Assembly (NCBI RefSeq): GCF_009828855.1
Contig: NZ_WUAG01000002.1
Span: forward strand, 1,116,001 to 1,180,000
Origin: Psychromonas sp. L1A2
Lineage (GTDB): Bacteria > Pseudomonadota > Gammaproteobacteria > Enterobacterales > Psychromonadaceae
Reading direction: 5' to 3'
DNA: 64,000 nt
The position numbers and the translations under genes are program-made. The notes under the pieces are model-generated. The model made no database searches. It was not told the DNA's origin and was given only the letters and a program-made list of their open reading frames with translations. Below, piece by piece: positions 42,887-64,000 of the stretch. Each line of letters begins with the position of its first letter. The first letter of the stretch is position 1.

Positions 42887-43267
42887 GTTTATCCTGTTTT
42901 ATCACTCATAAAGAATGATATTAAATAATGTAGATATTCTGCCTTATCTTTCATTAGCTTGTTCGTTACTGAGGTTAACTGCAAGTAATTTACTTCGCAC
43001 CAAAACAAAATTACACCCTAAAATGAGTGGTTTAAAATAGGAATGAATAATAGATAAACCAATGATAACGGTTAATTACAGCAGATTGATATTAGTTAGA
43101 ACAATTTTGTATTATCGCTTTCCACTCAGCTTGTTAATAATAGACACCGTTCGCTAAGTTGCGTAGTAAAGTTATATGTTCAAACTACATACTTAAACTA
43201 CATAGTAAGGCGGCATTCGTAAGCAACATACTAACAACAGCATTTAACACAACCGATAGAAGTATTT

Positions 43268-49535: not shown

Positions 49536-50147
49536 TTATTTGAGCATACCTTGCGTTTCAATAAACTCGATGATCTCAGCTAACCCTTGTTGTGTTTTCA
49601 TGTTACTGAAAATAAATGGTTTATCACCGCGCATCTTCTTCGCGTCTCGATCCATTACTTCCAATGACGCACCAACCAAATCAGCAACATCAATTTTATT
49701 AATGATCAACAAATCAGACTTAGTAATACCTGGGCCACCCTTACGTGGAATTTTATCACCTGCAGACACATCAATCACGTATAAAGTTAAGTCTGATAGT
49801 TCAGGGCTGAATGTTGCACTCAAATTATCGCCGCCGCTTTCCACTAATACAAAATCTAAATCAGGGTGACGTTCATGTAATTCATCAATAGCAGCTAGGT
49901 TCATTGAGGCATCTTCACGGATTGCCGTATGCGGACAACCACCTGTTTCTACGCCAATAATACGGTCAGCCGTTAACGCATCATTACGTGTTAAAAATTG
50001 TGCATCTTCATGTGTGTAAATATCGTTCGTGACGACAGCCATTTCATATTTGTCGCGCAGTGCTAAACACAATTGGCTTAATAAAGCGGTTTTACCTGAA
50101 CCGACTGGACCACCAACACCGATACGTAATAATTGTTTTTTTCTCAT
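49536..50147 (-). CDS. ureG: urease accessory GTPase UreG
   Basis: A 203-residue SIMIBI GTPase (Klebsiella 205) that delivers nickel to urease. P-loop [14 protein letters not shown], the metal-binding CPH motif in [35 protein letters not shown] and [12 protein letters not shown] are all present. It works with UreE, UreF and UreD. It starts 73 bases after the ureF stop. Confidence 0.98.
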
Positions 50148-50220
50148 TATATGTCTCTCATATTTCTAAAATTACTTTAAACACTTAAAACAGATAACTG
50201 CTTAAGCCTAAGCTGTTACT

Positions 50221-50916
50221 TTAAGAACGGAACAGTCGCGTATATTGTGTTTCATGCCAAGCACTTGCCATCGCCAATCGCGGTAAGCTTGCGCCGATAT
50301 CATCATCTTCAATCTGGTTGGCAACATTGATAGCCCCTTCCACTTTATCGCTTAATTCAAACAGTAAATTTTGTGCTTGAGTTTGCCCTAATGGCACCAG
50401 CTTTGTTGCAGCTGCTACTTGGTTATCAAGGTACGTCCAGCAATAACCACTTTGCGCTGAGATTAAATCTAATTTAAAAAGGTACGCTGCAATCGCAAAC
50501 ACACTGACAAAACTACTCTCTGGCTGTTGAAATAGTTCGCTATAAGGTTCGCTATCAACGCTATCTAATTGCTTTAATAAACGAATCAATGCTTTGCCCA
50601 TTGCGACATCGGCAAGACGTAATTCACTACTCTCACGACAAGCAATTAAATGCTGGTTATGCAGTTTAAAGTTGTCAAAATCATTATTTTCTAAGGCGAG
50701 ATACAATCGTTTTAATAAGGCTAAATCAGTACGGGCAATGGATTCATTGAGGTTTAACTCAATCCACTCAAAAGTCGTTTTTTGATTGTTTATCCAGCTC
50801 ATTTCAATCGCGTATTCCAACCCTTGTGAAAATGAAAAACCGCCAACCGGTAGATTGGCACTGCATAATTGCAGCAGCCGATTAAGCTTAACTGGACTGG
50901 CCATATTAATGTTCAT
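50221..50916 (-). CDS. ureF: urease accessory protein UreF
   Basis: A 231-residue helical protein (Klebsiella 224) that bridges UreD and UreG in the activation complex. Motifs: [25 protein letters not shown] and the ending [21 protein letters not shown], typical of UreF. The start at 50916 ([11 protein letters not shown]) overlaps the ureE stop by 11 bases; longer readings to 50994 would run through the ureE His tail and are rejected. Confidence 0.95.
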
Positions 50917-51400
50917 GGCGATGCTCTGAATCTGAATGTTCATGAGAGTGAGAGTGTCCATGCGAATGCCCACTACGCTTACCGTAAGCACCATTTTCAG
51001 GCGTAAATACCGCCGGTGTTTTATCGATTGTTAAGCCATAGTTTTCAGCAAGTTCTTCTAACACGTGATCCGGTTTAAAACGTACCCATAACTCACCGAC
51101 TTGCAATGTCGTATGGCGATTTCCTAAGTGATAGCAGACTTTGCTAAAGGTTAACCAATCTGTGCTAAGCGCAGTTGAAACGGCTTCCGCTTGGCCCTTT
51201 ACTTCAATCAATAAACCACATTCTGTTTTTAATATTTCACCAACTAACAAAGGATGTCCACGCTCTACAAAAATACCAATATCTGCACCTTTGTCTGTAA
51301 CCCCTTTGATACGTGATTTCTTACGCGTATCATGATCCAATGTAATCGAATCATTAATCTCATCATGCGTATGATCCAACCTTTCAAATACTTGTAACAT
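50906..51400 (-). CDS. ureE: urease accessory nickel chaperone UreE
   Basis: A 164-residue nickel carrier. The N-terminal peptide-binding domain ([20 protein letters not shown], then VGEILKT) precedes the metal-binding domain with CYHLGNRH, whose histidine is conserved, and [17 protein letters not shown] His-rich tail ([20 protein letters not shown]) holds about ten histidines for nickel storage. It is separated from ureC by a 184-base spacer with a large palindrome. Confidence 0.97.
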
Positions 51401-51455
51401 TGTTTATCTCTTTTTCTTTTTCGCTAAAACCAATGTAATAACTTTTAATCTACTT

Positions 51456-51587
51456 ACTCTTTTTACACAGTAGGAGGGCTTTAGGCAAAGCCGTCAAACT
51501 TTTATTTTATGAGCATATGTTCCATATGTGATTCAAATAAAAGTGCAGACAATGCAGACTAAAGTTCTCCTACGCAGTAAAAAGTTA
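51456..51587. repeat. large imperfect palindrome between ureC and ureE
   Basis: The arms, about 64 bases each, are centred on a three-base gap between two CATATG hexamers (51514-51519 and 51523-51528). Well-paired blocks are TTTTTAC/GTAAAAA, GTAGGAG/CTCCTAC, CTTTAG/CTAAAG and CTTTTATTTTATGA against TCAAATAAAAG. It begins at the ureC stop codon. No gene lies inside. Confidence 0.8.
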
Positions 51588-53288
51588 GAATAAGCAGTAT
51601 CGCTGTGCAAGAGGTAGCTCTGTCGCCGGCTCACACGTCAATAACTCACCGTTTGCACGCACTTCATAGGTTTGAGAGTCCACTTCAATATTCGGCATCC
51701 AATCATTATGGATCATGTCTTTTTTGCCAATATTACGGGTGTTTTTACACACACCGACTAAACGTGTCATTCCCGCTATTTCAGGTACATTTTTATCAAT
51801 CGCCGCTTGCGATAAAAAGGTCATTGACGTTTGTGCTGCTGCGCTGCCAAATGAACCAAACATTGGGCGATAATAAACTGGTTGTGGTGTTGGGATTGAT
51901 GCATTCGCATCACCCATTGGTGCTGCGGCAATAAAACCAGATTTTAAAATCATCGAAGGTTTAATACCAAAGAAGGCGGGTTTCCATAACACTAAATCGG
52001 CCATTTTTCCTATTTCAATCGACCCCACTTCATGGCTAATACCATGGCTAATGGCCGGATTAATTGTGTATTTGGCAATGTAACGTTTAGCACGGAAGTT
52101 ATCATTGCGCTCTGTATCAGGTGCTAACGGACCACGTTGTTGTTTCATCTTATGGGCAGTTTGCCAAGTGCGTGTGATCATTTCACCAACACGTCCCATG
52201 GCTTGTGAGTCAGACGAAATCATACTGATTGCACCTAAGTCATGCATTATGTCCTCTGCGGCAATACTTTCTTTACGAATACGCGAATCGGCAAAGGCAA
52301 CATCTTCAGGAATAGATGGGTTGAGATGATGACATACCATCAACATATCTAAATGCTCATCAATGGTATTAATCGTATACGGGCGCGTTGGGTTAGTTGA
52401 TGAAGGTAATACATTTGGCTCACCACAAGCACGGATAATATCAGGAGAATGACCGCCACCAGCACCTTCAGTATGGTAAGTATGAATAGTGCGACCTTTA
52501 AATGCGCCTAATGTATCTTCTAAAAAACCTGACTCATTTAACGTATCAGTATGAATCGCAACTTGTACATCATAACGCTCAGCAACCGACAAACAGTTAT
52601 CAATCGCAGCTGGTGTTGTGCCCCAATCTTCATGCAGTTTTAAACCACACACCCCCGCTTCAATTTGTTCTTCTAATGCTTTCGGTAAGCTGACGTTACC
52701 TTTGCCTAAGAACCCAAAATTCATTGCGAAGTCATTAGTTGCTTGCAGCATTTTATGGATATTCCAAGGGCCAGGAGTACAGGTAGTCGCTTTGGTACCT
52801 GTCGCAGGGCCAGTTCCACCACCGATCATGGTCGTGACGCCTGACATTTGTGCTTCTTCAATTTGCTGTGGGCAAATAAAATGGATATGTGCGTCTATGC
52901 CACCAGCCGTTAAGATTTGGCCTTCGCCTGCAATGACTTCTGTACCTGCACCAATTTCGATATCAATATTGTCTTGAATATCAGGGTTACCGGCTTTACC
53001 GATAATAGCGATACGGCCGTCTTTAATACCCACATCCGCTTTTACAATACCCCAATGATCAAGGATCAAGGCATTAGTGATCACAAGATCAACGGTCTCA
53101 GAACAAGCTGCTTGGCTTTGTCCCATTCCATCACGAATCACTTTTCCGCCACCAAAAGTGACCTCTTCACCGTATTCAGTAAAATCTTTTTCTACTTCTA
53201 TCCATAAGTCTGTATCAGCTAAACGAATACGATCGCCGACCGTTGGACCGAACATATGTGCGTAAGAATGTTTATCAATGCTAGCCAT
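51585..53288 (-). CDS. ureC: urease alpha subunit
   Basis: The 567-residue catalytic subunit (Klebsiella 567). Urea is split into ammonia and carbamate at a dinickel centre. Nickel ligands visible include the HIH pair at residues 134 and 136, carbamylated lysine 217 in GLKLHEDWG, histidines in VAIHTDTLN and [11 protein letters not shown], and the active-site flap with MVCHHL. It lies just after ureB (2 bases) and is followed by a palindrome and then ureE. No truncation or missing ligand is apparent. Confidence 0.99.
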
Positions 53289-53290
53289 GA

Positions 53291-53632
53291 TTATTGTTCT
53301 CCCTCAATGCTACTTTTAGTCTCGACTTGGAGGTCGCCTTGAATATCACCACGGAAACCAAATACACGGCGCTTACCGCGATAAGGTATCAGCGTAACGT
53401 CTCGCTTTTGTCCCGGTTCAAAACGAACCGCAGTACTTGAGGTAATATCTAAACGATAACCTTTAGTGATTTCACGATCAAAAACCAACGCTCTGTTTAC
53501 CTCATAAAAGTGATAATGCGAGCCAACTTGAATCGGTCTGTCACCTGAATTTGCAACCGTCACTTTTAACTGCTCACGGCCAACATTGAGTTCTCTATTA
53601 CCGCTATCCGTTTTTATTTCGCCGGGGATCAT
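53291..53632 (-). CDS. ureB: urease beta subunit
   Basis: A 113-residue subunit (usual 101-106, so a short C-terminal extension). The core [40 protein letters not shown] and [19 protein letters not shown] is canonical. It packs with UreA and UreC in the (UreABC)3 enzyme. It starts 11 bases after ureA. Confidence 0.98.
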
Positions 53633-53643
53633 AAGCTACTCCA

Positions 53644-53946
53644 TTAAATAATTGGGTTATGGATAGTGACTAACTTCGTCCCATCAGGGAAGGTTGCTTC
53701 AACTTGTACTTCAGGAAGCAACTCAGCAATGCCATCCATCACTTGGTCACGGGTTAATAACGTACGCCCGTAATCCATCATTTCAGCCACGGTTTTTCCG
53801 TCACGTGCACCTTCCATGATTTCCATAGAGATGTAAGCCATCGCTTCAGGATAATTTAGTTTTACACCACGTTTTAAACGACGCTCTGCTAGCAATGCGG
53901 CAGTAAAAAGCAGTAATTTGTCTTTTTCTCTTGGTAATAAATCCAT
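53644..53946 (-). CDS. ureA: urease gamma subunit
   Basis: A 100-residue subunit, the standard length. Motifs [40 protein letters not shown] and [20 protein letters not shown] are conserved throughout the family. It begins the structural ureABC block, 65 bases after ureD. Confidence 0.98.
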
Positions 53947-54010
53947 ATCATTTTCTCTTTTAATTTAGGCCAAGCTATTAATAAGCTCTCTTCTTTATAC
54001 AAAAGTCTTT

Positions 54011-54943
54011 TTAGGTATGCCAGATTCTCGGTTGTATCGCGATTTTATCGATCAATAAAGGCCGTAATACTTCCCATAAACTAATGAATAATTGTTTGCA
54101 TTGTTGTGCATGAGCACCCAGATAGCGGATTACTAATAAACCATCAATATCACTAATGCTGATCAATGACTGTGCGTTTTGCTCCATTACTGTGTCACGT
54201 AATAAGGCCACCAACTCGGCGCGTTGCTGTGGTTGTTTTAATGTTTGCGGCGCATAAGCTAAAAAAGTCGCAAATACGCTGTTGTTGGCTAACCCAGCGG
54301 GATGCGTTAAAAGTTGATTAGCGGGAGATAACGCAATGCGGTCATGGTAAATTAAGATGTCATCGCAATATAAGCGATTTAATTGACAGTATTTTCCGTC
54401 TACAAAGGGTTCATCTGAATCAGGTAATCCAAGGCAAGTAATATCCCAACCAAGGTAAACACTGCTGCTAGTGAGCTTGATATCAACAGTATTAAAACCA
54501 TCGGCTCCTTCGTAAACAATGGTTTCCTGCGGGAAGTTTTCACACTTAGCGTTAGCCTCTAAGGTTAACTGAGTGATTTGTGCTTGTTTTGTATCGCCGA
54601 TATCAAGGTTGGTTCGAGCACGATAAAAGCGCCCCGCTCCAGGTGTGGTAAACAGTAAATGAGCATCTTCCTTTACTGCCACACTAATACGTAATTCATC
54701 ACCAGATACAATGCCAGCAGGTGGATGTAACAAGTAAATATGCGCACAATCTCGTCCTTCTGGGTAAAAGGCTTTTTGAACTGAAAGCGGCCCTTTACGT
54801 TGTGTACGAGTCAATTGTGTTCCGACGGGAGTGTTACTGAATTCTAAGAGCAAATGAGCAAGCCAGTGATTTTTCACTGGCTTGCTAGCGTTGATATTCG
54901 TCGCTACGGTAGCAGCTGAAGAGAGTGGCGCGGTTGTAATCAT
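54011..54943 (-). CDS. ureD: urease accessory protein UreD/UreH
   Basis: A 310-residue accessory protein that binds apo-urease first and recruits UreF and UreG for nickel insertion. Family marks: KGPLSVQKAFYPEGRDCAHI with LLHPPAGIVSGDELRI, TTPGAGRFYR and QETIVYEGA. The N-terminal 25 residues (to KPVKN) vary from the usual start at about LLLEFSN and may be partly non-native. It lies between urtE and ureA. Confidence 0.95.
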   Translation of the reverse strand: MITTAPLSSAATVATNINASKPVKNHWLAHLLLEFSNTPVGTQLTRTQRKGPLSVQKAFYPEGRDCAHIYLLHPPAGIVSGDELRISVAVKEDAHLLFTTPGAGRFYRARTNLDIGDTKQAQITQLTLEANAKCENFPQETIVYEGADGFNTVDIKLTSSSVYLGWDITCLGLPDSDEPFVDGKYCQLNRLYCDDILIYHDRIALSPANQLLTHPAGLANNSVFATFLAYAPQTLKQPQQRAELVALLRDTVMEQNAQSLISISDIDGLLVIRYLGAHAQQCKQLFISLWEVLRPLLIDKIAIQPRIWHT

Positions 54944-54993: not shown

Positions 54994-55689
54994 TTAAACG
55001 GCGAGATACTTACTGACTAATTCATCATCAAGTTCATCCATTGGACCCGATGCTATTACTTGACCTTTTTCCATTAAGTGGAAGTTTTCTCCCACTGCGC
55101 GAGCAAAAGGTAACTTCTGCTCCACTAAAATAATGGTCATGCCTTGTTCTTTATTTAACTTTAATAACACATCTCGAATTAATTGCACAATATTAGGTTG
55201 AATACCTTCATTGGGCTCATCTAATATCAAGATATCCGGATTCAGCACTAAAGCACGTCCAATCGCTAACTGCTGTTGTTGGCCACCAGACAGGTCACCA
55301 CCACGGCGATGCAACATTTCTTCCAGTACAGGAAAAAGCTTAAAGATATGATTTGGAATTGTTTTACTTTTTTGTCTTGAGCAATTTAAACTGATTTTTA
55401 GATTTTCTTCAACCGTCAATTGCGGAAAGATATGACGCCCCTGTGGCACATACCCAACGCCAATCTCAGGGCGTTGCTCAACACTGCTTTTACTCATATC
55501 TTTGTCATTAATTACAAGATTACCTGAGCTAATAGGCAATAATCCCATAATGGTTTTTAATAACGTGGTTTTACCCACACCGTTACGCCCCATGATGCAA
55601 GTACGAGAGCCTTTCTTAATCTTAAGGTCGAGATCCCATAGGATCTGTGTGCCACCATATTTTTGATTTACTGCGGTTAATTCAATCAT
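54994..55689 (-). CDS. urtE: urea ABC transporter ATPase UrtE
   Basis: A 231-residue LivF-like ATPase. Walker A MGRNGVGKTTLLK, signature LSGGQQQQLAIGRAL, Walker B ILILDEPNEGIQPN and switch histidine replaced by VEQ in ILVEQKLPF, all as in UrtE/LivF. The RHIFPQLTVEENL Q-loop region is typical of this family. It powers urea import together with UrtD. Confidence 0.96.
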   Translation of the reverse strand: MIELTAVNQKYGGTQILWDLDLKIKKGSRTCIMGRNGVGKTTLLKTIMGLLPISSGNLVINDKDMSKSSVEQRPEIGVGYVPQGRHIFPQLTVEENLKISLNCSRQKSKTIPNHIFKLFPVLEEMLHRRGGDLSGGQQQQLAIGRALVLNPDILILDEPNEGIQPNIVQLIRDVLLKLNKEQGMTIILVEQKLPFARAVGENFHLMEKGQVIASGPMDELDDELVSKYLAV

Positions 55690-55691
55690 GA

Positions 55692-56501
55692 TTAAGCTTG
55701 CTCCTCACCTAAATAAACTTCACGTACATCTTTATTTGCTTGGATTTCATCCATCGACCCTTCCGCTAACACGCTCCCTTGATGTAATACCGTCACTTTA
55801 CGTGCAATAGAACGCACAAAGGCCATATCATGCTCAACTACCACTACTGAATGCTTGCCTGCAAGTGATGTTAATAGCTCAGCTGTACGCTCGGTTTCCT
55901 GTGCGGTCATACCAGCAACAGGTTCATCAACTAACAATAAACGCGGCTCAGCGGCTAATAACATACCAATTTCTAGCCATTGTTTTTGGCCATGAGATAA
56001 ACGCCCTGCTGGATAATGCTGCTCGACTGTTAAACCAATGGTTTGTAAGACTTCATCTATTTTATCTTGTTGTTCGCCACTCAATTTATGAAACAACGCA
56101 CTCCAAATACCTTTATCGCCAGACAAACTTAACTCGATATTTTCAAAGACACTGAGTGCTTCAAATACCGTTGGTTTCTGAAATTTACGGCCGATACCTG
56201 CACGTGCTATTTCAGATTCATCGAGTGTTAATAAGTCAATTTGCTGACCAAAATCCACCTTCCCTTTGTCAGGACGCGTTTTACCAGTAATAACGTCCAT
56301 TAGCGTGGTTTTACCTGCGCCGTTTGCACCGATTAAACAACGTAACTCACCATCACCAATATAAAGATTAAGGTCATTTAACGCTTTAAAACCATCAAAA
56401 CTCACACTGACATCTTCCACGTATAAAATCATACCGTGGCGTGTATCTGGCTTTAAATTATCAACTGATGACAGCGGTGAACCATGTTTATCTACAATCA
56501 T
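55692..56501 (-). CDS. urtD: urea ABC transporter ATPase UrtD
   Basis: A 269-residue LivG-like ATPase. Walker A IGANGAGKTTLMD, KFQKPTVFEALSVFENIELS, signature RLSHGQKQWLEIGMLL and Walker B LLVDEPVAGMTAQE match UrtD. The N-terminal ~25 residues (MIVDKHGSPLSSVDNLKP) are an extra tail found in many UrtD proteins. Its start overlaps the end of urtC by one base and it ends two bases before urtE. Confidence 0.96.
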   Translation of the reverse strand: MIVDKHGSPLSSVDNLKPDTRHGMILYVEDVSVSFDGFKALNDLNLYIGDGELRCLIGANGAGKTTLMDVITGKTRPDKGKVDFGQQIDLLTLDESEIARAGIGRKFQKPTVFEALSVFENIELSLSGDKGIWSALFHKLSGEQQDKIDEVLQTIGLTVEQHYPAGRLSHGQKQWLEIGMLLAAEPRLLLVDEPVAGMTAQETERTAELLTSLAGKHSVVVVEHDMAFVRSIARKVTVLHQGSVLAEGSMDEIQANKDVREVYLGEEQA

Positions 56502-57706
56502 TATTTATTCTCCACTGCTAGTGTTGCATCATCCGACTTACTTTTATTAAAGTCGTTTTTATCAGAGCTGCTCGGTTTCTTTTCTGTTGCTGGTGGATCT
56601 ATTTTATCCATTAAGTTTGTCACTAACCCTGCAAGGCCTTTTGGTAGTAACAAAGTAACCAATACAAACAAACCACCTAATCCAAATAACCATGCTTCTG
56701 GCATAATCGCAGTAAAACGCGTCTTGGCATAACTCACCACAATCGCGCCCACTAATGCGCCGTATAAAGTACCTCGTCCACCAATTGCCACCCAAATAAC
56801 AATCTCAATGGAATTTAATGGAGAGAATTCACCCGGATTAATAATGCCCACTTGTGGTACATAAAGCGCACCTGCTACACCCGCTAACATTGCTGATACT
56901 ACGAAGATCCATACTTTATAATGTTGCGGTTTATAACCTACAAAACGCACACGATCTTCTGAATCACGAATCGCAGTGACCACACGGCCCATTTTTGAAT
57001 TAACAATAAAGTGACTGAGCGCATAACCAATGGCTAACATTACTGCTGTCGCCACAAATAAAGCCAACTTAGTATTCGGTGACTGTAATGAGAATCCAAA
57101 GATTTCTTTAAAATCCGTTAAACCATTGTTACCACCAAATCCCATTTCATTACGGAAAAAAGACAGTAGCAATGCATAAGTCATCGCTTGTGTCATGATG
57201 GATAAGTACACACCACTTACACGTGAACGGAATGCTAACGTACCAAAGATGAAAGCTAATAAACCAGGACCAGCAAAGACTAATAAAATCATCACCAAGG
57301 CGTTATCAGATCCCGCCCAATACCAAGGTAATTCAGTCCAGTTCAAGAACACCATAAAATCGGGCAGTTCAGGGTTACCGTAAACGCCACGATCACCAAT
57401 TTGACGCATTAAATACATGCCCATCGCGTAGCCACCTAAGGCAAAGAATGCGCCGTGGCCTAAACTTAAAATACCGCAATATCCCCATACCAAATCAACC
57501 GCTAAGGCGAGTAAGGCATAACAAAGATACTTACCTAATAAACTCACCGTGTAATCACTCACATGCAGTAGTGAGCCCTCGGCAAACATCAAGTTACACA
57601 CGCTGACATACAATGTTGAGACAAATAAGATCGCAATAACAAAATGCAAACTACTCATTTTTTTAGTTATGTTTTTCACGCTAGGTGAATTCAGTAAAGT
57701 ATTCAT
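56501..57706 (-). CDS. urtC: urea ABC transporter permease UrtC
   Basis: A 401-residue LivM-type permease with about ten helices. Conserved parts: DLVWGYCGILSLGHGAFFAL, MTQAMTYALLLSFFRNEMGF, FGGNNGLTDFKEIFG and NPGEFSPLNSIEIVIWVAIG followed by GRGTLYGALVGA. The C-terminal tail is polar and Lys/Ser/Asp-rich. Start and stop codons overlap both neighbours by one base, showing tight translational coupling in the urt operon. Confidence 0.96.
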   Translation of the reverse strand: MNTLLNSPSVKNITKKMSSLHFVIAILFVSTLYVSVCNLMFAEGSLLHVSDYTVSLLGKYLCYALLALAVDLVWGYCGILSLGHGAFFALGGYAMGMYLMRQIGDRGVYGNPELPDFMVFLNWTELPWYWAGSDNALVMILLVFAGPGLLAFIFGTLAFRSRVSGVYLSIMTQAMTYALLLSFFRNEMGFGGNNGLTDFKEIFGFSLQSPNTKLALFVATAVMLAIGYALSHFIVNSKMGRVVTAIRDSEDRVRFVGYKPQHYKVWIFVVSAMLAGVAGALYVPQVGIINPGEFSPLNSIEIVIWVAIGGRGTLYGALVGAIVVSYAKTRFTAIMPEAWLFGLGGLFVLVTLLLPKGLAGLVTNLMDKIDPPATEKKPSSSDKNDFNKSKSDDATLAVENK

Positions 57707-59403
57707 TATTCTGCAGATCTCCCTTTTTGCGGAAACAGTCCTTTAGGTCGCTTTTGAATGAACAACACTAAACTGACTAAAACAATAATATTGGCAAGCA
57801 CTGGCCCCATTGATGGTTCTAGTATTTTGTTAAATGTTCCCATGGTCATTGCTGCTACTAACGTGCCCCATAAGTTACCTACACCACCGAATACCACCAC
57901 TAAGAATGAATCGATGATATAAGCCTGTCCTAAGTTCGGTCCAACATTCGTCAACTGACTTAATGCCACACCTGCAACCCCCGCAATACCAGAACCTAAC
58001 CCAAAGGTAATCGCATCAACCCATGAGCTTTTAACACTCAATGCTCTTGCCATATCTCGGTTTTGAGAAACAGCGCGAACGTGTAACCCTAATGAAGAAT
58101 TTTTCAAAATCATTAACAGTGAGAAGAACACCATTAACGCAAATAAGATGATGTATAAACGGTTATAGGTTAACGACAAGATAGGGTTAATTTCTAACGA
58201 ACCACTCATCCATTGTGGTGCTTCAACTTGGCGGTTAAGTGGAGAGAACACACTACGTACTAGTTGTTGTAAAATTAAGCTAATACCAAAAGTAGCCAGT
58301 AAGGTTTCTAATGGGCGGCCTTTTAAGAAACGAATCACACCACGTTCAATTAATACACCAACAAAACCAGATACAAGGAATGCAGCAGGTACAGCCATTA
58401 ATAACGAGTATTCAATTAAATGAGGGAAAGTTTGTTGGATAACATAAGTGGTATAAGCACCTAACATCATCATTTCACCGTGCGCCATATTGATAACACC
58501 CATCACACCAAAGGTGATAGCAAGACCAATCGCCGCCAGTAATAAGACGGATCCAAGACTTAACCCAAAAAATAAATTTTCAGCTAAGCTAAACACACTC
58601 GCTTGTTGTTCAATGCTGCTTATGGCATTGGTTAATACTGTTTTAAGTTCTTTTGTTTCTGCACTTTGTGCTTCTACGCTGCTAGATTCAGTGTCAGTAG
58701 ATGTTGAACTAGTAGAAGCTGAATCGGCAGAGATGCTATCTAACTCTTTAACTCTATCTAACTCTTTAACTAAGGCATTCTTAACAGTCGGTTCTAAACG
58801 ATCTGACAGTTGTTTAGCCGCAGACAATTTCTCCGACGTTGAACCCGTTTCTAATTGATCAACTAATAAGATAACTGACATCAATTCACGAGCATCATCA
58901 TCTTTCTCGCTTTTGATTAATTTATTAACCGCAGTCAAACCGGTTTGGTTTGGGTTATCTAATAATTGTTTTAAAGCGGTAATACGGGTATCAGCATCAG
59001 TACTTGTTAAATCAAGGTTGGCTAATAAGTCACGAATTTGGCCACGTAAACGGTTATTGGTTCTTACTTTTTTAATCGCTGATTTACTCACCGCAGGTAA
59101 CACTTCAGCAGTTAACACATCCGTCAGTTCATATTGTTTTTGTTGGTTTTTAAAGACAGAGACAACGCGTTTATCGGCTTTAAGGTAATACAGATCGCCG
59201 TCCATCAAAGGTTGTAAAATATTACTGACTTGTGGTGTTGATGTCGCCGCGATTTGTTCAATCAGTGACGCCATTTTGTTTAATTTAGTATTTGGTAACT
59301 GCTCTACTAATGCAGGAAGAGCTGATTGTTGTGTTTCACTAACAGCGGCTGAGGCGTTGAATGACATAACAAAGAAAAGTAAAAGGGGAAATAGACGCAA
59401 CAT
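57706..59403 (-). CDS. urtB: urea ABC transporter permease UrtB with long N-terminal extension
   Basis: A 565-residue protein: a signal peptide (MLRLFPLLLFFVMSFNASAA), then ~260 residues of helical periplasmic sequence (LADLTSTDAD..., DNPNQTGLTAVNKL, VSVILLVDQLE-like HEAT-type helices) with a Ser/Thr-rich linker, and then a LivH-type permease (FGVMGVINMAHGEMMMLGAY, GRPLETLLATFGISL, RAVSQNRDMARAL, GVGNLWGTLVA). Only the last 290 residues are needed for a LivH fold. Long-form UrtB proteins are known in proteobacteria. ATG 59403 is preferred over 59463 because AAGGA lies just upstream. Confidence 0.94.
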   Translation of the reverse strand: MLRLFPLLLFFVMSFNASAAVSETQQSALPALVEQLPNTKLNKMASLIEQIAATSTPQVSNILQPLMDGDLYYLKADKRVVSVFKNQQKQYELTDVLTAEVLPAVSKSAIKKVRTNNRLRGQIRDLLANLDLTSTDADTRITALKQLLDNPNQTGLTAVNKLIKSEKDDDARELMSVILLVDQLETGSTSEKLSAAKQLSDRLEPTVKNALVKELDRVKELDSISADSASTSSTSTDTESSSVEAQSAETKELKTVLTNAISSIEQQASVFSLAENLFFGLSLGSVLLLAAIGLAITFGVMGVINMAHGEMMMLGAYTTYVIQQTFPHLIEYSLLMAVPAAFLVSGFVGVLIERGVIRFLKGRPLETLLATFGISLILQQLVRSVFSPLNRQVEAPQWMSGSLEINPILSLTYNRLYIILFALMVFFSLLMILKNSSLGLHVRAVSQNRDMARALSVKSSWVDAITFGLGSGIAGVAGVALSQLTNVGPNLGQAYIIDSFLVVVFGGVGNLWGTLVAAMTMGTFNKILEPSMGPVLANIIVLVSLVLFIQKRPKGLFPQKGRSAE

Positions 59404-59482
59404 GAGCTGTTCCTTAATATTGATTTCTTCAGTGCATAAAAATGGGAGGGCTGAGCCTCCCATCTAATCGTTCTTACATTTA

Positions 59483-59592: not shown

Positions 59593-60876
59593 CTAAAATT
59601 GTTGACCAGAACATTTTGCAGTAGTGACATCAAAGTTGCCGCATTTGATTGGAGCAGTCCAATCAGAGACTAGGTTTTTCGAGCTTGGTAAGAAATCTGA
59701 CCATGCATCACCAATCACAGTATCAGGCGTAGACCAAACCACTTCAAACTGACCGTCTTCTTGGATTTCACCAATTAATACAGGCTTAGATAAATGGTGG
59801 TTAGGATTCATTACCGCAATACCGCCCGTTAAGTTAGGTACAGCGATACCGATCATTGCTTGCTCAACTGCATCAACATCAGTAGTACCGGCTTTCTCAA
59901 CAGCCTTAACCCACATTTTGAAACCAATGTAAGTTGCTTCCATTGGGTCATTTGTTACACGTTTGTCATCACCAATGTATTTTTTCCATTGTGCGATAAA
60001 CGCTTCATTCTCTTCTGTTTCAACACTTTGGAAGTAGTTCCAAGCGGCTAAATGACCTACTAACGGTTTAGTATCAAAACCAGATAGCTCTTCTTCACCA
60101 ACAGAGAACGCAATAACAGGGATATCTTCAGCAGAAATACCTTGGTTACCTAACTCTTTGTAGAATGGGATATTTGCATCACCGTTTACTGTTGAAACTA
60201 CAGCTGTTTGTTTGCCTTCAGAACCAAAGCGTTTTACTTCAGCTACAATATTTTGCCAATCTGAATGACCAAATGGCGTGTAGTTAATCATGATATCTTC
60301 AGACTTTATGCCTTTAGACATCAAGTATGCTTCTAATATTTTGTTAGTAGTACGTGGATAAACATAATCAGTACCTAACAAGACAAAGCGCTCAGCACCA
60401 AGATCATTAATCAAGTAATCAACAGCAGGAATCGCTTGTTGGTTTGGCGCAGCACCGGTATAGAATACGTTTTTAGAAGACTCTTCACCTTCGTACTGAA
60501 CTGGGTAAAACATTAAGCCGTTAAGCTCTTCAAGCACAGGCAATACTGATTTACGAGAAACTGAAGTCCAGCTACCAAAAATAACATCGACTTTATCTTT
60601 TGCTAATAATTCACGGCCTTTCTCTGCAAATAATGGCCAGTTTGACGCAGGGTCAACCACCACAGGCTCAATTTTCTTACCTAATAAACCGCCCTTTGCA
60701 TTTTGCTCTTCAATCATCATCAATACAGTGTCTTTTAGTGTTGTTTCACTAATTGCCATTGTGCCTGATAAAGAATGTAAAACACCGACTTTGATGCTAT
60801 CAGCAGCATAAGCAAAGTTAGTCATTAAGCCAGTTGCAACAATCGAACTTGCAACAATTAGTTTCTTCAGTTTCAT
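59593..60876 (-). CDS. urtA: urea ABC transporter substrate-binding protein UrtA
   Basis: A 427-residue periplasmic protein with a signal peptide (MKLKKLIVASSIVATGLMTN, cleavage near AYA). Mature start DSIKVGVLHSLSGTMAISE and motifs FGSWTSVSRKSVLPVLEELN, FYPVQYEGEESSKNVFYTGA and NYFQSVETEENEAF are typical of UrtA, which binds urea (the family also includes the amide sensor AmiC-like fold). Start at 60876 follows AAAGGAA. It is the first gene of the cluster and begins opposite the NCS1-kinase. Confidence 0.96.
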   Translation of the reverse strand: MKLKKLIVASSIVATGLMTNFAYAADSIKVGVLHSLSGTMAISETTLKDTVLMMIEEQNAKGGLLGKKIEPVVVDPASNWPLFAEKGRELLAKDKVDVIFGSWTSVSRKSVLPVLEELNGLMFYPVQYEGEESSKNVFYTGAAPNQQAIPAVDYLINDLGAERFVLLGTDYVYPRTTNKILEAYLMSKGIKSEDIMINYTPFGHSDWQNIVAEVKRFGSEGKQTAVVSTVNGDANIPFYKELGNQGISAEDIPVIAFSVGEEELSGFDTKPLVGHLAAWNYFQSVETEENEAFIAQWKKYIGDDKRVTNDPMEATYIGFKMWVKAVEKAGTTDVDAVEQAMIGIAVPNLTGGIAVMNPNHHLSKPVLIGEIQEDGQFEVVWSTPDTVIGDAWSDFLPSSKNLVSDWTAPIKCGNFDVTTAKCSGQQF

Positions 60877-61137
60877 AGATAGTTCCTTTCCCTTTTTAGT
60901 ATCCAATGATTAATCTTTTTAACGGAATAAAAATCTCAATCCCAACCTATTTCAAGTGGGATTAGTATCCAGTAATTAGAGCAAGCATTAAATGCGCAAA
61001 AGCGCGCAATGGACTACGTAATTATGCGCATATAAAAACAACAACTATTGAAGTAAGGTACGCGCGCACGATATGCTAAGAGCTGAGTAGTTATTAGTAC
61101 GGGTACGGATAGCCAATAAATAGCGAAAGAAGCGGTC
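60877..61137. promoter_or_regulatory. divergent control region between urtA and the NCS1-kinase gene
   Basis: 261 bases. A minus-strand promoter TTGAAA (60950-60955), 17-base spacer, TTTTAT (60927-60932) is placed ~50 bases before urtA. A direct repeat TAGTATCCAATGATTA (60897-60912) and TAGTATCCAGTAATTA (60963-60978), 14 of 16 identical, flanks it. AATCCCA...GTGGGATT forms a hairpin across the promoter. Three GCGC-rich blocks (60993-61008, 61024-61031, 61060-61069) stand out in AT-rich DNA. No sigma-54 site with GG-N10-GC spacing was convincing. Confidence 0.5.
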
Positions 61138-64000
61138 ATGCAATCAAACCAAAAAATAATTAAAGCACGCAGAACTTATAACAAGCTTGTTGCCAATGAG
61201 ATGATGGAAGATTTTGCGCTGCGCTTTACCGCTAAACGCGCAAGAAAGTGGTCATTAAACCGCATTTCAATGACGGCGCTTGGGATAGTTTCGTTTCTTG
61301 TTTTAGAAGCGATTGGCGGTGCAATCACCCTTCAATATGGCTTTGAAAATGCCGCTTGGGCGATTTTAGCGGTCACCTTAATTGTATTCTTAACCGGCCT
61401 GCCTATTAGTTATTATGCCGCCAAATATGGTGTCGATATCGACTTACTCAGCCGAGGTGCTGGTTTTGGTTATATTGGTTCCAGTATCGCCTCACTTATT
61501 TACGCCTCCTTTACCTTTATCTTTTTTGCGCTTGAAGCTGCGATTATGGCGATGGCATTAAAAATACTATTTGGCTTGCCCTTACCCGCAGGGTATATCG
61601 TCAGTACCTTATTAATTATCCCCTTAGTGACCCACGGCATTACCTATATCAGTCGCTTTCAAGTCTGGACGTCACCGATTTGGGTGGCACTGCAACTACT
61701 ACCATTGTTCTTTGTGTTTACTCACAACGATACGCAATTCAGCGATTGGATCAGCTTTACAGGTGAAGCTGGCGAATCAGGCAGTTCATTTAATCTATTA
61801 TTATTTGGTGGCGCTTCAGCCGTTTTATTAGCGTTAGTCGCGCAAATCGGTGAACAAGTCGACTTCCTGAGGTTCTTACCTGAAAAACCAAAAAAAGACG
61901 CTTGGCGTTGGTGGTTAGCACTGATTGCAGGTGGTCCAGGTTGGATGTTATTTGGCGCGCTTAAACTATTTTTAGGATCTTTCTTAGCCTACTTTGCATT
62001 AAAGCAAGGTGTTGCACCACATCTCGCCAGCGACCCTGCTCACATGTATCAACTTGCTTACAGTTATGTGTTTGATAACCCGTCGATTAGTGTCTTTGTA
62101 GCTTGTACGTTTGTGGTGTTATCACAGTTAAAAATTAACGTTGCCAATGCCTATGCAGGTTCATTAGCATGGTCTAACTTCTTTTCTCGCGTCACACACA
62201 ATCATCCAGGACGCGTAGTGTGGATGGTGTTTAATGTGGCCATTGCCCTATTGCTGATGGAACTGGGCATTTACCAAACCATCGCCAGTATGTTGTCAGT
62301 TTACTCGGTGATTGTACTGGCTTGGTTAAGCTCAGTAGTAGCAGACCTTATCATCAACAAACCCTTAGGCATCAGCCCTCGTCATATCGAATTTAAACGC
62401 TCTCACCTTTATGATATTAACCCCGTAGGTGTTGGTTCAATGTTGATTGCATCAATAGCAGGCTTTACCGCTCACATGGGTATTTATGGTGAAACCATTG
62501 AAGCGTTAGCATCTTTTATTGCGTGTTTTTTGCCATTTATAACGGTGCCTTTAATTGGCTGGTTAACCAAAGGAAAATACTATTTAGCGGCCAACCAACA
62601 ACCTGAAATCAAAACCTTTACGCAATGCCACATTTGTGAAAATAGCTTTGACCATGAAGACATCACTTTCTGCCCTGCTTATGGCAAAGCTATTTGTTCC
62701 TTATGCTGTAGCCTAGATGTGCGATGTGCAGATCAATGTCGACCAGACGCCACCCTTTCACAACAAGCCCATGATTTTTTCACGCGTTTTTTAAGTGCCA
62801 AAGTACTTAAAGTATTAACCACACCACTAATGCAATTCATCGCACTCACCTTAGGTCTTGGTTTTGTTGGCGCGGGGATCTTAGTGTTGGTATATCTACA
62901 AGTTCCACTCGATGAAGTAGAAGTGAAAGAGGTTTTTGCGAGCACCTTAATTAAGATATTTTTCCTATTAATTATCATCATTGGTATCGTCAGTTGGTTA
63001 TTTATCCTCGCGCGTCACGGCAATCACAGTGCATTAAAAGAGTTACGTTCACAGACTAAAGCTTTAGCTAAAGAAGTGGATGCTCACGAACAAACCTCAG
63101 AAGCCTTACAAAGCGCAAAAGAAGTAGCAGAGTCGGCCAATGAAGCTAAAAGTCGTTATCTTGCCGCGTTAAGTCATGAGTTACGCACCCCGCTTAATGT
63201 ACTGTTAGGTTATGCACAACTGTTAATGCGCGATGAAGTATTACCGCCAAAACAACGTGAAAGTATCTCAATTGTGAGACGTAACGGAGAGCATTTAGCC
63301 GACTTAATTGAAAGCTTATTAGAAGTCTCCAAGATTGAAGCGGGACGTGTGACCTTGCAACGTGATGAGTTTAATCTCAAAGCTATTTTGCAACAGCTGG
63401 TGGATATGTTCCAAATGCAAGCCAGTAAAAAAGGCATTAAATTCCATTATATCGCCAGCGCCAACCTACCCGATTATGTCGCCACAGATAAACAACGCTT
63501 TAGACAAATACTGATCAACTTGATCTCTAACGCCATTAAATACACAGAAAAAGGCTCAGTTACTTTTAAAGTCACCTACCGCAGTGAAGTCGCTAACTTT
63601 AGTATTATCGACACTGGCGCAGGTATCGCCAAAAGTAATCAAGATTTAATATTTAAACCCTTTGAGCAAATTCGCAATACCCATACTCAATCTATCGGTG
63701 GAACGGGATTAGGATTAACCATCTCACGTTCATTAGCTGAACTAATGGGGGGTGAAATAAGCTTAACGAGTAGTGTTGGACAAGGCTCAACCTTCAACTT
63801 CAAGCTGATGTTATTTAAGCTCAACAAAGATCCTAAAGAGCCAGAACTGACTAAATCAGAAGCAGTAGGCTATAACGGCGCGAAGCAAACCGTATTAGTG
63901 GTGGACGATAATAAAAACCAACGTGATTTAATGTTCAATTTATTAGAGCCGATCGGCTTTAAGGTGTTATTAGCCGAGCATGCACAGCAAGGTTTTGAAT
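61138..64000 (+). CDS. NCS1 permease-hybrid histidine kinase fusion (3' end outside window)
   Basis: Open to the window end (954 codons). Residues ~25-490 resemble an NCS1 cytosine/purine-type permease: about 12 helices, SRGAGFGYIGSSIASLIYAS, NVANAYAGSLAWSNFF and ISPRHIEFKRSHLYDINPVG. Residues ~497-535 form a Cys-rich module (CHICENSFDHE, TFCPAYGKAICSLCC, RCADQC) with the spacing of a metal site. Two more helices follow (~555-625), then a coiled coil, HisKA (ALSHELRTPLN, His 680), HATPase (NLISNAIKYTEKG, IIDTGAGIA, GGTGLGLTIS) and the start of a receiver (VLVVDDNKNQRD, from ~917). The start follows AAGAAG. Lying divergent from urtA, it probably senses a nitrogenous ligand. Confidence 0.88.
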   Translation, partial: MQSNQKIIKARRTYNKLVANEMMEDFALRFTAKRARKWSLNRISMTALGIVSFLVLEAIGGAITLQYGFENAAWAILAVTLIVFLTGLPISYYAAKYGVDIDLLSRGAGFGYIGSSIASLIYASFTFIFFALEAAIMAMALKILFGLPLPAGYIVSTLLIIPLVTHGITYISRFQVWTSPIWVALQLLPLFFVFTHNDTQFSDWISFTGEAGESGSSFNLLLFGGASAVLLALVAQIGEQVDFLRFLPEKPKKDAWRWWLALIAGGPGWMLFGALKLFLGSFLAYFALKQGVAPHLASDPAHMYQLAYSYVFDNPSISVFVACTFVVLSQLKINVANAYAGSLAWSNFFSRVTHNHPGRVVWMVFNVAIALLLMELGIYQTIASMLSVYSVIVLAWLSSVVADLIINKPLGISPRHIEFKRSHLYDINPVGVGSMLIASIAGFTAHMGIYGETIEALASFIACFLPFITVPLIGWLTKGKYYLAANQQPEIKTFTQCHICENSFDHEDITFCPAYGKAICSLCCSLDVRCADQCRPDATLSQQAHDFFTRFLSAKVLKVLTTPLMQFIALTLGLGFVGAGILVLVYLQVPLDEVEVKEVFASTLIKIFFLLIIIIGIVSWLFILARHGNHSALKELRSQTKALAKEVDAHEQTSEALQSAKEVAESANEAKSRYLAALSHELRTPLNVLLGYAQLLMRDEVLPPKQRESISIVRRNGEHLADLIESLLEVSKIEAGRVTLQRDEFNLKAILQQLVDMFQMQASKKGIKFHYIASANLPDYVATDKQRFRQILINLISNAIKYTEKGSVTFKVTYRSEVANFSIIDTGAGIAKSNQDLIFKPFEQIRNTHTQSIGGTGLGLTISRSLAELMGGEISLTSSVGQGSTFNFKLMLFKLNKDPKEPELTKSEAVGYNGAKQTVLVVDDNKNQRDLMFNLLEPIGFKVLLAEHAQQGFE

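Follow-up and report, generated by a model that had tools for sequence, protein, structure and literature searches.

A histidine kinase with an NCS1-like permease domain as a probable two-component sensor for urea and short-chain amides

The gene at the right-hand end of the window (the whole 64,000-nucleotide stretch of Psychromonas sp. L1A2 analysed here) encodes a permease-type hybrid sensor histidine kinase, which probably senses urea and short-chain amides as part of a two-component system and would control the divergently transcribed genes through a conserved 16-bp dyad. Computation establishes the order of its domains, the fold of its permease part, its linkage to urea and amide genes, the conservation of the dyad, and the occurrence of this dyad before urt operons that lie apart from the kinase. 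From the conserved linkage and the dyads before these separated operons, both the regulator and its operator can be predicted.

The reading frame of the kinase (61138-63999, + strand) stays open up to the end of the window, and the genome sequence beyond it, where the stop is reached, gives a full length of 1121 residues. In this single chain, a permease leads into a module of eight cysteines, a hairpin of two helices, and a hybrid histidine kinase, and the composite frame described in the first-pass annotation is borne out by the structure model, Pfam, and the motif check. The HisKA (residues 670-736), HATPase (784-891), and REC (919-1028) domains score above the Pfam cut-offs, and the kinase and receiver motifs, including the H box, are intact. 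The parts are located as follows:

61138..64000, + strand: permease-type hybrid sensor histidine kinase (its first 954 of 1121 residues; about 500 bases more lie past the window)
61225..62583, + strand: NCS1-like permease domain (residues ~30-482; AF2 model, Foldseek, profile-profile comparison)
62626..62739, + strand: eight-cysteine module (residues 497-534; conservation, weak CRIPT/zinc-ribbon matches), presumably cytoplasmic
62824..63012, + strand: two-helix transmembrane hairpin (residues ~563-625; secondary structure of the model)
63145..63345, + strand: HisKA (residues 670-736, SHELRTP at 679; Pfam and motifs)
63487..63810, + strand: HATPase_c (residues 784-891; Pfam and motifs)
63892..64000, + strand: start of the receiver domain (residues 919-1028, cut by the window end; Pfam and motifs)

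Past position 64000, the receiver is completed, and the kinase gene is overlapped downstream by a gene for a 295-residue REC-LuxR response regulator (Response_reg plus GerE by Pfam), which provides the presumed partner. A regulator gene alongside the kinase, the arrangement of a two-component system, is also present in 53 of the 55 loci of the phylum sample described below; 119 of 128 loci show the regulator's DNA-binding part, whose recognition helix is nearly constant. The source genome (two contigs, 4.34 Mb), whose nearest named relatives belong to Psychromonas, holds a single match to the sensor domain.

The identities and orientation of the genes that had been annotated as a divergent urtABCDE-ureDABCEFG cluster were confirmed. 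All five Urt proteins, as well as UreC and UreG, score above the NCBIfam cut-offs, and UreD, UreA, UreB, UreE, and UreF were identified through annotated Klebsiella genes:

59593..60906, - strand: urtA, urea ABC transporter binding protein (NCBIfam), opening the predicted target operon
54994..59463, - strand: urtB, urtC, urtD, urtE (NCBIfam)
49536..54943, - strand: ureDABCEFG urease cluster (UreC/UreG by NCBIfam, the rest against Klebsiella)

The UrtB of the window (57706-59463) has 585 residues, and its permease part begins near residue 295; this N-terminal extension of about 290 residues is missing from the 927-base urtB of formamidase-linked plasmid clusters.

The linkage between this kinase and urea or amide genes is conserved in its relatives. 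Among the 47 stretches fetched from named genomes, urtA occurs in 39, being divergent from the kinase in all of them (39/39), and at locus L060 the kinase directly faces urease genes. Neither urtA nor urease lies near the kinase in seven (L044, L049, L051, L054, L057, L071, and L073), L051 being a 3.3-kb contig. In a sample of the phylum of the window, 61 of 398 genomes hold sensor matches. The strong matches represent 55 kinase loci (omitting the window's own locus, G107, which equals L101, and weak-score rows), three of which (L158, L159, and L160) apparently repeat L031, L038, and L039. Genes for urea or amide uptake or hydrolysis adjoin 54 of these 55 kinases, the exception (L202) being a 4.8-kb contig. 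The neighbours include urtA-type genes at 45 loci (divergent from the kinase in 44), formamidase at 37, amidase at 20, and ureC at 10; a stand-alone permease gene was found at none of the 55.

Overall, 17 of 128 loci have no urea or amide gene in the fetched stretch, namely the seven named-genome loci together with L202, L092, L089, L090, L086, L080, L093, L096, L099, and L100. Upstream sequence is short in some of them: L092 starts at the kinase, L089 and L090 have less than 2 kb, and L086 has 5 kb; at L080 the kinase faces a stand-alone permease. The exceptions are L093, L096, L099, and L100 (genomes G137, G032, and G128), of which L099 and L100 both come from G137, where no match to urease was found; G032 and G128 carry urease elsewhere. 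Kinases unlinked from urea genes, which would speak against the coupling to urea uptake and urease proposed at first, are therefore few, and this coupling is strongly supported by the conserved divergent linkage, the upstream dyad, and the separated operons. At one further locus, that of Colwellia maritima (L062:10001-11921), the kinase gene and part of the urt/ure genes are broken into separate frames, possibly through sequencing errors.

The sensor also matches 535 plasmid records, 342 of them from Klebsiella. At the annotated plasmid loci, urtABCDE is accompanied by both formamidase and a zinc-ribbon protein in Chelatococcus, Azospirillum, and Methylobacterium, by formamidase in Klebsiella, and by neither in Sinorhizobium, Roseomonas, and Rhizobium. 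Two studies argue, in their accessible text, that the substrate of urt-like clusters next to formamidase is an amide different from urea (PMC3098086) or is formamide (PMC13209695).

The region between the kinase and urtA, which holds a stretch conserved in Psychromonas, contains two copies of a 16-bp dyad with the ideal form TACGTCAnnTGACGTA, and one further single match lies in the window at 43150. Neither copy is assigned to a strand:

60993..61008: predicted operator box 1, TGCGCAAAAGCGCGCA (conserved dyad)
61015..61030: predicted operator box 2, TACGTAATTATGCGCA (22-bp offset relative to box 1)

The pattern T.CGYN6RCG.A occurs no more than 400 bp upstream of the kinase at 54 of 73 loci (L062 excluded) versus 77 of 3245 control stretches (400 bp each, drawn from these loci), counts that are partly fitted since the pattern was fixed after the sequences had been viewed; mononucleotide shuffles predict 1.2 sites. 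Three of the 19 misses have less than 100 bp of upstream sequence, as is the case for L051, L092, and L102. The dyads of the phylum sample, those of the separated operons, and the kinase-less control were obtained once the pattern had been fixed. In the phylum sample, 39 of the 55 kinases are preceded by a dyad; the 16 lacking it include five of the eight urease-adjoining loci without divergent urt genes and four of the five with a Sinorhizobium-like urtA. Where two dyads lie within 60 bp, the 22-bp offset is shared by 34 of 37 pairs. This doubled form is present in 34 of 128 loci (L062 excluded, and three being repeat genomes) and, where present, appears once per locus, before the kinase or the porin-urt genes, in the 2.37 Mb scanned. 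The LuxR-type regulator is predicted to bind these dyads as its operator. A narrower pattern, TGCGYN6RCGCA with one mismatch allowed, was discarded, as its six matches in the window are not above chance (4.6 expected), and a scan with a simple sigma-54 pattern gave no match in the divergent region of 11 Psychromonas-type sequences.

In seven genomes the kinase lies far from urtA (about 7 kb in the case of L055), and urtA was found in all seven. The urt stretches of six of them carry a doubled dyad in every case, some 80-130 bp upstream of a porin gene located ahead of urtA, these distances being approximate, with porin starts extrapolated from tblastn matches. In L055, and in L046 with other genes intervening, the porin is preceded by a single perfect dyad and the kinase by a second one. 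Thus, all eight separated urt operons examined are preceded by the dyad upstream of the porin, six doubled and two single. Upstream of the kinase genes of the seven genomes, a single dyad is found in L044, L054, L055, L057, and L071, and none in L049 and L073. Among kinase-less genomes, 1 of 20 urea-type urtA genes has a dyad within 1.3 kb, in line with the proposed operator. Among kinase-bearing genomes, only 2 of 10 have one, which tells against it; three of these misses (G070, G138, and G249) have their kinase and dyad at an amide-type cluster instead. Loci for this control were obtained from 30 of the 70 urtA-matching genomes. A porin gene with a dyad upstream precedes urtA in several Alteromonadales relatives (L036:8737-9747 and L152-L157); that of L036 is of the BBP2 type, and these porins may form an outer-membrane pore for urea.

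Regarding the sensor itself, its permease part can be read as a divergent NCS1-type domain. A Foldseek search with the AF2 model of residues 1-638 (mean pLDDT 79, pTM 0.77) places CodB and Mhp1 at ranks 1-5, with E values from 8e-9 (CodB, top) to 2e-7, and other LeuT-fold families begin at 5e-6. The profile of the sensor family aligns over the whole domain with a profile built from seven NCS1 proteins at a probability of 99.7 percent, versus 0.2 percent with a profile of the SSF proteins of the source genome, both values coming from single pairwise comparisons outside any database search. The original assignment to NCS1 permeases is hence upheld by structure and profile-profile comparison, although not by the family profile PF02133, which matches by domain none of the 27 scanned sequences, the window's included (E up to 1). 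Pfam and PDB sequence searches assigned the sensor domain to no transporter family, and the lone CodB sequence gave no real alignment with the family profile, which aligned only with the seven-sequence NCS1 profile. The NCBIfam cytosine permease model PRK11017 matches 4 of 27 relatives (best E 6.5e-7, the score relative to the cut-off being uncertain). Pfam scans revealed no SSF/SLC5 domain in the family, and no STAC among the matches of a library that may be without a STAC model. Among the stand-alone relatives, that of Klebsiella, 37.5 percent identical to the sensor domain, scores 37.7 against the PF02133 cut-off of 23.5, and that of Moraxella has no PF02133 match at E 0.01.

The module behind the permease, initially credited with seven or more cysteines, holds eight (at 497, 500, 512, 520, 523, 524, 530, and 534), each kept in 125 or 126 of 128 members (L062, whose kinase frame is broken in the record, excluded). 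At each position, they are present in 47 or 48 of 50 amide-type loci versus 78 of 78 elsewhere. In Pfam, CRIPT is weakly matched by 9 of 27 sequences (best E 0.0019) and one zinc-ribbon family by 1 of 27, which suggests, by motif, that the module may bind zinc, a likelier metal than nickel. Judging by the helix count it would be cytoplasmic, and the AF2 model places two helices after it (563-588 and 594-637).

Taken as a sensor for urea and short-chain amides, the protein would bind urea or a small amide, either outside the cell or in passage, in its NCS1-like domain, and the change induced by the ligand would reach the hybrid kinase by way of the cysteine module, which probably holds zinc, and the hairpin. 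The kinase, with its motifs intact, is predicted to phosphorylate the LuxR-type regulator from the overlapping gene, and this regulator, judging by conservation, would bind the 16-bp dyads of the divergent region. It would thereby activate the urt/ure operon of the window and the fmd/ami operon in relatives, activation being the presumed direction of control, and probably its own gene as well.

The ligand had first been supposed to be a purine-type compound (allantoin, a hydantoin, or a nucleobase), with urea handling induced since purine breakdown yields urea. The nearest structures are indeed NCS1 proteins, CodB and Mhp1, and the stand-alone relatives are annotated as cytosine or allantoin permeases. 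Formamidase is not known to take part in purine breakdown, and yet it is the commonest enzyme partner of the kinase (the 37 of 55 loci mentioned above), whereas purine catabolism genes are listed around none of the seven kinases with annotated surroundings; the likely ligand is therefore urea or a short-chain amide rather than a purine. The pocket points in the same direction. In CodB, cytosine is bound by Gln105, Trp108, and Phe204, and the sodium ligands include Thr278 and Thr279; Mhp1 additionally uses Gln121, according to the accessible text of the source (PMC9379551). By profile alignment, in which one-residue shifts are possible, the five CodB residues correspond to Thr126, Phe129, Val or Ile234, Lys332, and Ile333, and Glu133 stands where Mhp1 has Gln121 (counted four residues on from the Trp). 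The aromatic sandwich is thus incomplete, with Phe129 in 40 of 41 aligned members and an aliphatic Val/Ile234 in 39 of 41, and the Na2 site of sodium-coupled NCS1 proteins is replaced by Lys332 and Ile333 in 41 of 41. The loss of one stacking aromatic and of both threonine ligands would fit a small ring-free ligand and sodium independence, proton-coupled NCS1 members having been described (PMC13390362, accessible text). Altogether, a purine-type ligand seems very improbable.

A main input through the cysteine module (nickel, zinc, or redox), tying metal supply to urease, would account for eight near-invariant cysteines between permease and kinase. However, they are equally conserved in amide-type loci, so that the nickel role once suggested is not indicated, and the stand-alone permeases of Klebsiella and Moraxella retain CxxC and CSLC only, which assigns at least four cysteines to the permease rather than to the link with the kinase; this input is improbable. 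The same holds for a general nitrogen-status sensor with urea and amide operons as one target among many: it would suit the single dyad before the kinase in five of the seven loci without a near urtA, but the restriction of the doubled dyad, within the 2.37 Mb scanned, to one site per locus before the kinase or the porin-urt genes tells against it. A bifunctional transceptor, in which the domain would in addition move urea or amides across the membrane at a useful rate, is a better candidate, albeit still on the unlikely side. CbrA both transports histidine and signals (PMC7096432, accessible text), and Glu133, Gln236, Lys332, Ile333, and Asn334 (TM3, TM6, and TM8) are identical in all 41 aligned members, stand-alone permeases among them, so that transport capacity may be kept; on the other hand, a urtA-type ABC system is also encoded at 45 of the 55 loci, and Ks-Amt5 is reported to signal on ammonium binding without transport (PMC5764959, accessible text).

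The stand-alone relatives are found close to the same enzymes. In Klebsiella pneumoniae, one annotated as a cytosine permease follows ureDABCEFG (L078:9983-11590, behind ureG); in Moraxella osloensis, another faces fmdA-fmdB; at L060, a third follows the kinase beside urease; and at L097, a further one faces the kinase and precedes fmdA, fmdB, and amiE. They look like the transporter of clusters lacking urtABCDE, and those beside urease or formamidase, including the Klebsiella ureG neighbour, are candidate urea/amide permeases. The sensor part is likewise joined to several outputs: a simple kinase without receiver at L206 and L208, both near formamidase, and other kinase outputs at L093 and L099. 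At L100:7349-11020 (G137), the permease, cysteine module, and hairpin are fused to PAS-GGDEF-EAL, and the input module may therefore drive cyclic-di-GMP turnover. In a FastTree phylogeny of 110 sequences, read by eye, amide contexts are scattered and urea contexts fall into several separate groups; no residues separating both contexts were found at the thresholds used. A broader proposal, tentative and leaning slightly towards doubt, is that of a widespread receptor module, in which an NCS1-type domain has moved from nucleobases to urea and short amides, carries a zinc module and a hairpin, and is portable between hybrid kinases, simple kinases, PAS-kinases, and PAS-GGDEF-EAL proteins; the stand-alone forms, the Klebsiella pneumoniae ureG neighbour among them, would be unrecognised secondary urea/amide permeases, sodium-independent owing to the conserved TM8 lysine.

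For the uptake of urea and amides in alpha-, beta-, and gammaproteobacteria, the analysis thus puts forward a regulator together with a candidate operator and a class of ligands, and the stand-alone relatives allow receptor and transporter to be compared. The published accounts consulted describe urea/amide transport clusters, and none proposes, in the accessible text, how the adjacent kinase and regulator act. A kinase of this family lies beside a urt-formamidase cluster on a Klebsiella pneumoniae plasmid, and the same cluster make-up has been reported for the Klebsiella ST307/CG307 lineage, where the accessible text names neither kinase nor regulator. Among the literature matches listed and in the accessible text, with few subscription journals covered, there was no NCS1-type sensor kinase and no such kinase for urea or amides. 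The closest precedent in context is the genome description of Ectopseudomonas guguanensis, which names a hybrid kinase and a LuxR regulator beside urtABCDE; its accessible text does not propose a permease domain, an operator, or a function (PMC13296017).

Several known systems share individual features with the sensor, and CbrA and Ks-Amt5 serve as models of how it may work. CodB and Mhp1 have the same fold, and both the TM3 aromatic (as Phe) and the position of TM8 Asn280 are kept; unlike them, the sensor lacks the second stacking aromatic, has Lys332/Ile333 in place of CodB Thr278/Thr279, and is fused to a kinase. MetT is likewise an NCS1 protein for a linear, ring-free nitrogen compound, likened here by description rather than by sequence, although it is a stand-alone metformin transporter (PMC13390362, accessible text). 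Ks-Amt5 also reuses a transporter fold as a receptor for a small nitrogen compound, but with an Amt fold and a simple kinase, in an anammox bacterium (PMC5764959, accessible text). As far as the accessible texts describe them, CbrA and CrbS (SLC5-STAC) combine, like the present sensor, a transporter-type sensor, a coupling segment, and a histidine kinase in one chain, with a partner regulator (PMC13022988 and PMC7096432 for CbrA). Their sensors belong to another family of the LeuT superfamily, as reflected in the negligible SSF profile probability; the present one adds an NCS1-type branch to the few transporter families known as kinase sensors. Where CbrA has STAC, the present sensor has its cysteine module and hairpin, and its context is that of urea and amides.
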